A DNA stretch of 64,000 nt from contig NZ_LMUI01000047.1 in assembly GCF_009765995.1 (NCBI RefSeq), forward strand, positions 62,001-126,000. The letters run 5' to 3'. This DNA is from Methylocapsa sp. S129. GTDB taxonomy: Bacteria; Pseudomonadota; Alphaproteobacteria; Rhizobiales; Beijerinckiaceae. The notes under the pieces were generated by a model, which saw only the letters and a program-made list of their open reading frames with translations, made no database searches and was not told the DNA's origin. Shown piece by piece: positions 42,287-43,369 of the stretch. Numbering within the stretch: the stretch's first letter is position 1; every line of letters begins with the position of its first letter. Made by a program: the position numbers and the translations under genes.

Positions 42287-42335
42287 GGGCGGCATCCCAG
42301 GCGCACGGTTCCGCGGGACCGCGCAAAGGCAGTCG

Positions 42336-42776
42336 GGCTTAGGCAATAGGCAGTGGGTTGGAAGTTCGCCATCATCTTATCGTTCGTTCGAGGTTTGGAG
42401 GCTCCGCACCAGCGCGCGCAACATCCGCCCGATCCTGTCCGCTTGACCAAGCAATTGTTCGGCAATGTCGAAGCTCCCAAGTTTTAGGCGCTGCGACAAT
42501 ATCAAGTGGGTCTCCAGCTCTTTGAGTGACCCCTGCGCGACTTTGAGAAATTGGACGTACGAACCCGTGCTGTCGCGACCATAGCCCTCGGCGATATTCG
42601 CCGGCACGGAAACCGAAGCTCTACGAATTTGCGACGTCAAGCCGTACATCTCATCTCTCGGGAAAATCTTGGTGAATAAATAGCAACCTTCTACAAGCGT
42701 CATCGCGTCCAGCCAAATTTTCAGATCGCGATAAGACTTGATCTCACTCACATCCGCACTGCCTATTGCCTAATGC
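42336..42776. mobile_element. S23-type insertion framed by inverted repeats, between nuoC and nuoD
   Basis: Left arm TTAGGCAATAGGCAGTG (42339-42355) and right arm CACTGCCTATTGCCTAA (42757-42773) are perfect reverse complements. Outside them GGGC/TGCCC continues the match with one extra base. The 440-bp unit contains one gene, a four-helix-bundle protein, on the operon strand. The right arm contains the nuoC stop codon. The layout resembles the intervening sequences of 23S rRNA that encode S23 proteins between complementary ends. Mobility is inferred, not shown. Confidence 0.65.
42377..42751 (-). CDS. Four-helix-bundle protein (23S rRNA intervening-sequence / S23 family)
   Basis: The 124-residue protein matches the S23/TIGR02436-type family: SYRDLKIWLDAMTLVEGCYLFTKIFPRDEMYGLTSQIRRASVSVPANIAEGYGR, then a helical second half (YVQFLKVAQGSLKELETHLILSQRL). 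Members form pentameric helical bundles and resemble the Avd protein of diversity-generating retroelements. Their function is not established. It starts with GTG six bases after the right inverted repeat, without an obvious ribosome site, and lies on the nuo strand between nuoC and nuoD. It is complete. Confidence 0.9.
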   Translation of the reverse strand: MSEIKSYRDLKIWLDAMTLVEGCYLFTKIFPRDEMYGLTSQIRRASVSVPANIAEGYGRDSTGSYVQFLKVAQGSLKELETHLILSQRLKLGSFDIAEQLLGQADRIGRMLRALVRSLQTSNER

Positions 42777-43369
42777 CCACCTGCCTTCTCGTCGCCGGGC
42801 AACGGAGCCCCTTCCCAAGGGCTCATGAAATCGAACTGACGGAATTCCTGATTGAGGCGCACCGGTTCATAGACGACGCGCTTCTCTTCATCGTCGTAGC
42901 GCACTTCGACGAAGCCGGTCATCGGGAAATCCTTGCGTAGCGGATGACCTTCGAAACCGTAGTCGGTGAGAATGCGGCGCAGGTCGGGATGGCCGTCGAA
43001 GAGAACGCCGAACAGATCGTAAGTCTCGCGCTCGCACCAATCGGCGGCTGGAAAAACCGGGATGGCGGAGGGGACCGGCGTTGCTTCATCGGTCTCGATC
43101 TTGACGCGCACGCGCAGGTTCAGTTTCGGCGACAGCAGTTGGTAGACAACGTCGAAGCGCTTTTCGCGCTCGGGATAATCGGCGCCGCAAATATCGGTGA
43201 AGCAGATGAACTGGCAGGAGGGGTCGTCGCGCAGGAAAGTGAGGACTTCGATGATGCGCGCGGCCTCAGCCAGAAGCGTCAATTCGCCAAAAGCGGATTG
43301 AACGCCCGTGACCGCGCCCGGCAGAGCCGCGGCGATCTTGTCGCCGATCGTTTTCAACGCCTCGTCCAT
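42770..43369 (-). CDS. nuoC: NADH-quinone oxidoreductase subunit C
   Basis: This 199-residue 30-kDa-type subunit of the peripheral arm carries [24 protein letters not shown] and the signature [37 protein letters not shown]. The last codons and the TAG stop lie in the right inverted repeat of the S23 insert. The C-terminal residues after EGAPLPGDE may therefore have been set by the insertion. Confidence 0.96.

Follow-up and report, generated by a model that had tools for sequence, protein, structure and literature searches.

A Methylocapsa S23 gene between inverted tandem-heptamer arms in the complex I operon and its possible relation to dispersed heptamer hairpins

S23, or 23S_rRNA_IVP, is a protein family that takes its name from its occurrence, which is rare, inside ribosomal RNA genes. 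To our knowledge, the family is widespread and its structure is solved, with no known function, and accounts of heptamer repeats in bacteria are scattered and name no partner gene. The 23S rRNA intervening sequence (IVS) of Coxiella is reported in PMC4990558 as 428 nt long, with heptameric repeats upstream of an S23 open reading frame that was judged expendable; the same source describes excision of the IVS by RNase III. A 2024 paper places 23S_rRNA_IVP open reading frames in insertions of the 16S and 23S genes of CPR bacteria.

REPIN/RAYT systems consist of short inverted doublets that form hairpins across a genome and are tied to a gene with copies of these repeats on its flanks. The RAYT phylogeny is largely congruent with that of the species (PMC3116915). 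Heptamer repeats are described in Xanthomonas, where GGGAATC forms 70 and 75 convergent inverted pairs in two genomes and the repeats are generally not associated with mobile elements (PMC4692102), and in Beggiatoaceae, where nearly all TAACTGA sets are direct repeats (PMC4679880). Both share a period of 7 with the arms of S23 genes described below, and one S23 gene (L085) has arms of the GGGATTC type, which resembles the Xanthomonas unit. The terms "S23" and "four helix" are absent from the main texts of PMC4679880 and PMC4692102, and in the open-access literature searched, no paper was found that links S23 either with dispersed hairpins or with heptamer arms away from rRNA.

The window is a stretch of 64,000 nucleotides from Methylocapsa sp. 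S129. It contains an S23 four-helix-bundle gene (42377..42751, minus strand; 124 aa, GTG start) between its upstream neighbor nuoC (complex I 30 kDa, PF00329; 42770..43369, minus strand) and its downstream neighbor nuoD (complex I 49 kDa, PF00346; 41096..42286, minus strand), with nuoB (PF01058) further upstream of nuoC. The gene is co-oriented with the nuo genes. Its protein belongs to the family by PF05635 (118.3 bits, cut-off 33.8) and TIGR02436 (112.7 bits, cut-off 24) and also passes NF008911 (166.4 bits, cut-off 137); together with the neighbor profiles, these matches confirm the position between nuoC and nuoD given in the original prediction.

The exact 17-bp inverted arms of that prediction are also present, and their pairing extends to 24 nt (42332-42355 and 42757-42780; 88% complementary, 17 exact pairs). 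In gene sense, the 5′ arm is GTGGGCATTAGGCAATAGGCAGTG (42757..42780, minus strand), made of the heptamers GGCATTA GGCAATA GGCAGTG, and the 3′ arm found by the inverted-pair search is its inverted copy, GTCGGGCTTAGGCAATAGGCAGTG on the plus strand (42332..42355). The nuoC stop codon TAG (42770-42772) lies within the 5′ arm, as predicted, whereas the heptamer make-up of the arms is a point absent from the original prediction. A 15-base arm core, with at most three mismatches allowed, matches three times in the 64 kb, each time inside the two arms, against 0.48 matches expected by chance and three matches reached in 0/100 shuffles. In a degenerate-unit scan, these imperfect tandem heptamers are the sole arrays of their type in the window; a stricter lag-7 screen (13 of 14) of the window returned zero arrays, S23 arms included.

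The architecture was surveyed in S23 genes from the window's phylum, where 58/398 genomes have one over the cut-off, and from other phyla, which contributed the best 80 of 559 confirmed stretches. The 191 loci gave 195 S23 rows, which the survey filter (profile start at most 10, end at least 100, and enough flank) and removal of identical proteins reduced to 149, and a limit of no more than 90% identity to 142. The arm score measures the inverted match of the 250 nt preceding the S23 domain with the 300 nt following it, with a threshold of 12. In this set, with the best 80 of 559 from other phyla, scores of at least 12 are reached by 113/142 S23 genes, 13/426 swapped pairs, and 11/142 random places in the same loci; at a score of at least 16, the counts are 80/142, 5/426, and 0/142. 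The remaining 29/142 genes score below 12, several of them at chance level.

Period 7 dominates the flanks of the same set (best 80 of 559 included), with 39 upstream and 61 downstream flanks passing at lag 7 (12 of 14), at most 6 passing at each of the other lags from 3 to 13 except lag 8, and 0-2 in shuffles. A period of 8 replaces 7 in some flanks, 12 upstream and 12 downstream ones passing at lag 8. The 5′ arm is polar, with G exceeding C in 90/96 and the reverse in 3, again in the set with the best 80 of 559. The heptamer unit differs between genomes and agrees between the two arms of one element, and unit likeness falls with protein divergence, from 5.1 of 7 positions shared at 70-90% identity to 3.6 below 30%. 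The architecture itself is nearly certain, inverted tandem-heptamer arms are a rule for S23 genes, and the expectation that such arms would be found with S23 genes other than that of the window is borne out. One surveyed contig (L036 and L112) carries a Bacteroidota-like S23 gene in an alphaproteobacterial genome bin, with Salinarimonas in the title of L112; it reflects either contamination or transfer.

In the genus, S23 exceeds the cut-off in 3/11 genomes. Nine nuoC-nuoD junctions are readable: three are filled (G000, G001, G003), three are clean and empty (G006, G008, G009), two hold arm-like remnants without S23 (G002, G010), and one holds another gene. In two of the empty junctions (G008, G009), nuoC runs into nuoD, its stop codon overlapping the start of nuoD. 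The other gene, in G004 (L013), is a different small gene preceded by a single GGGCAATAG remnant. S23 at this site in all relatives would have counted against the IVS-like element of the original prediction; the three clean empty junctions among the nine are the opposite outcome. Comparison of filled with empty nuo junctions for a target-site duplication gave no clear direct repeat.

Across the family, 17/149 genomes have S23 over the cut-off, and the gene sits at nuoC-nuoD in 14 of the 17. Another family of the same order adds six more nuoC-nuoD loci, and in L073 the gene stands in front of nuoC rather than between nuoC and nuoD. The S23 tree is built on few alignment columns, leaves many of its forks open, and has a nuo label that covers 21 loci, of which 20 are at nuoC-nuoD and one, L073, was mislabelled in the tree as run. 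On this tree, the nuo label changes 2 times (2-4 in bootstraps) versus 19.4 in shuffles, so vertical descent is the simpler account; repeated homing into nuoC-nuoD was set aside on the same count. The nuo-labelled genes form nearly one clade and thus say little on recent mobility. Nested within this clade is L099, which occupies a non-nuo place in a genome that also holds a nuo copy. S23 at nuo is accordingly old and mostly inherited vertically rather than a recent insertion. The original prediction is partly supported, for an IVS-like element in a protein operon and not for RNA-level excision.

The heptamer at the nuo locus varies by genome (GGCAGTA, GGCAGTC, GCGAATA, GCGAATG, GTGAGTA). The two arms, about 400 bp apart, carry the same heptamer, and the unit changes in both together. 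Among the nuo-locus genes of the 142-gene set (with the best 80 of 559), 15/17 have an arm score of at least 12, and L025 and L050 score 11. This joint switching of the unit, the arm-core shuffles, and the swapped and random arm controls all argue against a chance inverted repeat next to an ordinary operon gene, an explanation that has nothing beyond bare possibility on its side and whose probability is negligible.

The S23 gene itself is under purifying selection. Its dN/dS is 0.045-0.21 in 11/14 pairs, two of which include the window gene; the other three pairs are saturated and give no value, and since dS exceeds 1 in most of the 11, the ratios are rough.

Location inside 23S rRNA is the exception among S23 genes. 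Two of the 142 surveyed genes lie within 23S rRNA and 140 lie outside it, in the set with the best 80 of 559. Among the loci collected, blastn with the L037 flanks finds 23S-matching loci only in L037/38/40, which come from a single genome within the window's family, and in L100/101, and Rfam, run on 31 loci, places both groups inside LSU rRNA. The two 23S members have inverted heptamer arms with scores of 23.5 and 23.0, and their proteins group together in the tree (100/98). The term S23 hairpin is used here for an S23 gene that occupies the loop between two inverted tandem-heptamer arms, and 23S rRNA IVSs with S23 are the rRNA-resident members of this class. The same architecture inside 23S rRNA and, far more often, outside it upholds the proposal that protein operons can harbor an IVS-like element.

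The window element has the IVS traits of terminal inverted repeats predicted to form a stem and an S23 open reading frame, and it is similar to IVSs in size, its 449 bp comparing with 423 bp for the element at plasmid site T described below and with the 428 nt reported for Coxiella (PMC4990558). It differs in lying between the protein genes nuoC and nuoD rather than in 23S rRNA, and in that S23 arms belong to a type of repeat that occurs genome-wide in the tested families. Purifying selection on S23 here also differs from the expendable status given to the Coxiella open reading frame in that source (PMC4990558).

The arms were also proposed to pair in the mRNA, and the predicted fold of the nuo transcript agrees, closing arm on arm over the whole element, arms included (42332..42780, minus strand, 449 bp; MFE −191.3 kcal/mol, z −4.92, 0/100 shuffles as low). 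Under an IVS-like RNA model, RNase III would cut this stem in the nuo mRNA, release the S23 message, and part nuoC from nuoD. The predicted fold, the identical architecture in 23S rRNA, and the RNase III excision published for the Coxiella IVS (PMC4990558) are consistent with such a model, as is the finding that both neighbors lie on the S23 strand in 91/129 elements. This count, from the set with the best 80 of 559, omits 13/142 genes with one neighbor found, and the other 38/129 elements, which are not co-directional with both neighbors, argue against the model. Any inverted repeat gives a predicted stem, and a cut without religation would presumably sever the message of a respiratory-chain operon.

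In the arms scoring at least 12 (best 80 of 559 included), sense-strand wobble pairs do not exceed mirror mismatches (94 versus 90), nor do they at the stricter scores of 14 (78 versus 81), 16 (68 versus 69), and 20 (37 versus 35) in that set. Without a sense-strand bias, no mark of selection for RNA pairing can be seen in the arms, and such pairing does not visibly maintain their likeness. Selection on RNA pairing was accordingly dropped as the main reading, and the IVS-like RNA model is kept as a rival that is unlikely but carries more weight than the other alternatives.

Heptamer arrays of the S23-arm type also occur away from S23. In the window's family, three array types were counted after removal of matches inside the S23 locus; the patterns were derived from S23 arms, which favors S23-positive genomes and misses other units. 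Arrays of a genome's own arm type occur elsewhere in 13/14 nuo-S23 genomes (the exception is G018), compared with 9/28 genome-type cells for other types (p 2e-4, in a two-by-two test that assumes independence of genomes and array types, an assumption that does not hold). At least one of the three types occurs elsewhere in 14/17 S23-positive versus 31/132 S23-negative genomes (p 3e-6, with no tree control; 31/132 is a hand-made union of the three counts). The window's own genome has three array matches outside the S23 locus. On its contig C42 (L003/L004), heptamer hairpins of the window-arm type lie between genes that look phage-tail-like by eye, the L003 hairpin being short.

The family of G427, with S23 arms of GGGATTC, served as a replicate. 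S23 is present in 53/119 of its genomes, and the S23 loci read there have arms in 29/30, compared with 33/120 swapped pairs, a high count because the unit is common to the family. The median number of array matches, for a pattern likewise derived from S23 arms, is 72 in S23-positive versus 0 in S23-negative genomes (p 1e-10), and at least 10 matches occur in 34/53 versus 8/66. A species tree enters into neither of the family tests; the second includes a within-genus comparison, in which S23-positive genomes are higher in 12 genera, lower in 2, and equal in 2 (p 0.013).

Y1 transposases include the RAYTs. If the hairpins were REPINs moved by a Y1/RAYT transposase, S23 would be a hitch-hiker, and the scattered inverted doublets do resemble REPINs; in the second family, Y1-positive genomes also have somewhat more arrays overall (p 0.01). 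Within the S23-positive or S23-negative genomes of that family, however, Y1 has no significant effect (p 0.10 and 0.25), whereas the S23 effect is present in both Y1 strata (p 3e-8 and 0.004), which makes this explanation very improbable. The Y1 search covered Y1 transposases of every kind, in the second family only. At the family level, dispersed inverted doublets occur together with a partner gene flanked by the same repeat, as in REPIN systems. The S23 system differs from REPIN/RAYT in using heptamer arrays rather than REP 16-mers and in having S23, not a Y1 transposase, as the partner. Mostly vertical descent of the partner gene is a further likeness, given the species-congruent RAYT phylogeny (PMC3116915).

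Forty array loci were read, 20 from the S23-negative genomes G134 and G098 and 20 from the S23-positive genomes G087 and G122. An array is followed by its inverse in 29/40 of them (14 in S23-negative and 15 in S23-positive genomes), and in a scripted check the order is "><" in 29/29 neighboring opposite-strand array pairs and "<>" in 0. Dispersed arrays are thus hairpins, and the S23 element is the same hairpin with a gene in its loop. Among the matches listed, 24/24 pairs picked by eye are convergent as well. The loops of the dispersed hairpins are 4-231 nt long and look unlike one another, so the hairpins are not simply copies of a single element. A search of the 40 loci for S23 gave no match. 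Arrays in S23-negative genomes (31/132 in the window's family, 8/66 with at least 10 matches in the second, and hairpins at 14/20 loci read) indicate that S23 is not needed for their upkeep.

Plasmids provide further filled and empty sites. With the window protein as query, S23 was found in 35/72,556 plasmid records, mostly cyanobacterial; as a single query, the same protein gave no S23 match in 50,697 phage records. Site T is filled in Trichormus and Scytonema and empty in Aulosira, Tolypothrix, and Nostoc carneum, with flanks 97-98% identical. GTAAT borders the 423-bp element on either side and is single in the empty allele. Variants of the site have a truncated S23 in one plasmid and an arms-only hairpin in another, and the element recurs elsewhere at 78-83% identity in other surroundings, with the match ending about at the arms. 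Four more sites (N, C, D, and A2) likewise exist in a filled and an empty state, but with no clear duplication, their junctions being rearranged or too diverged. A clear 5-bp direct repeat is thus present at 1/5 plasmid sites only (site T), and target-site duplication was not adopted as a rule. Read from the alignments, the filled and empty alleles at the plasmid sites and at nuo record gain and loss.

On a plasmid of Nostoc 'Peltigera' N6 (L220), a heptamer hairpin without S23, of the same type as the site-T element, interrupts an S23 gene that is intact in the close copy L218; comparison of the two gave no clear duplication. On Nostoc plasmids, the close copies L202 and L203 have 3′ arms that are one heptamer apart in length, and the close copies L204 and L205 have 5′ arms that are 14 nt apart, which indicates that unit number changes quickly.

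Such a change of one unit between close plasmids would also fit S23 as passenger DNA in hairpins made by replication slippage and template switching, as would the unrelated look of the dispersed loops and the presence of arrays without S23. The passenger explanation is nevertheless improbable, though less so than a Y1-driven origin. It conflicts with the arms of most S23 genes examined across phyla (113/142, with the best 80 of 559), with arrays that track S23 in both families and, in the second, also do so inside genera and at constant Y1 status, and with purifying selection on S23.

The preferred reading is that S23 is the trans-acting partner of heptamer hairpins in an IVS-related, REPIN/RAYT-like system, and taken as a whole it is somewhat more probable than its negation. 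It builds on the observed architecture, its period of 7 and polarity, the agreement of the two arms, the S23-array link in two families, and the presence or absence of the element at several sites. S23 hairpins form a class present in many bacterial phyla, with S23-less hairpins scattered in the four genomes read, two S23-positive and two S23-negative. The S23 protein may bind heptamer hairpins, either in single-stranded DNA or in RNA, and may promote their spread and homogenization by acting in trans with host enzymes, as the association suggests. This role would be like the one proposed for RAYT on REPINs, although S23 is no known transposase. The nuo copy has become a resident of its operon that is passed on mostly by vertical descent, lies in the orientation of the nuo genes, and gives nuoC its stop through one arm; pairing of its arms in the nuo mRNA is a prediction.

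The S23 family and heptamer repeats are now tied together, which offers a reason why some 23S IVSs carry an S23 open reading frame and makes the function of S23 testable. If the preferred reading is true, bacteria have a repeat-plus-protein system comparable to REPIN/RAYT, with an unrelated protein. A broader version can be put forward tentatively, at somewhat less than even chances: S23 proteins would be the trans partners of phylum-spanning heptamer hairpins, spread and homogenized without a known transposase and perhaps through an Avd-like, nucleic-acid-templated step. The 23S IVSs would then be a minor, rRNA-resident branch, and the xanthomonad repeats, possibly with the cyanobacterial and Beggiatoaceae ones, would be products of the system.

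The S23 protein resembles the solved protein 2gsc, a homopentamer built of four-helix bundles according to PMC4990558. PMC10053308 states that 2GSC is homologous to an Avd structure, a likeness to the Avd of diversity-generating retroelements to which S23 adds a weak profile match. The window protein matches the bAvd profile PF22296 at 21.1 bits (E 4.5e-4) and two cyanobacterial S23 proteins match it at 27-28 bits (E 4e-6 to 7e-6), all under the curated cut-off of 40 bits. S23 differs from Avd in that its neighbors here are complex I genes; no reverse transcriptase adjoins the window gene, which sets the locus apart from diversity-generating retroelements. At L002 on contig C59 of the window's own genome, where no GGCAATAGG- or GGCAGTAGG-type match was found, a weak second S23-like protein (23.6 bits, below the cut-off) is perhaps an Avd-like relative.
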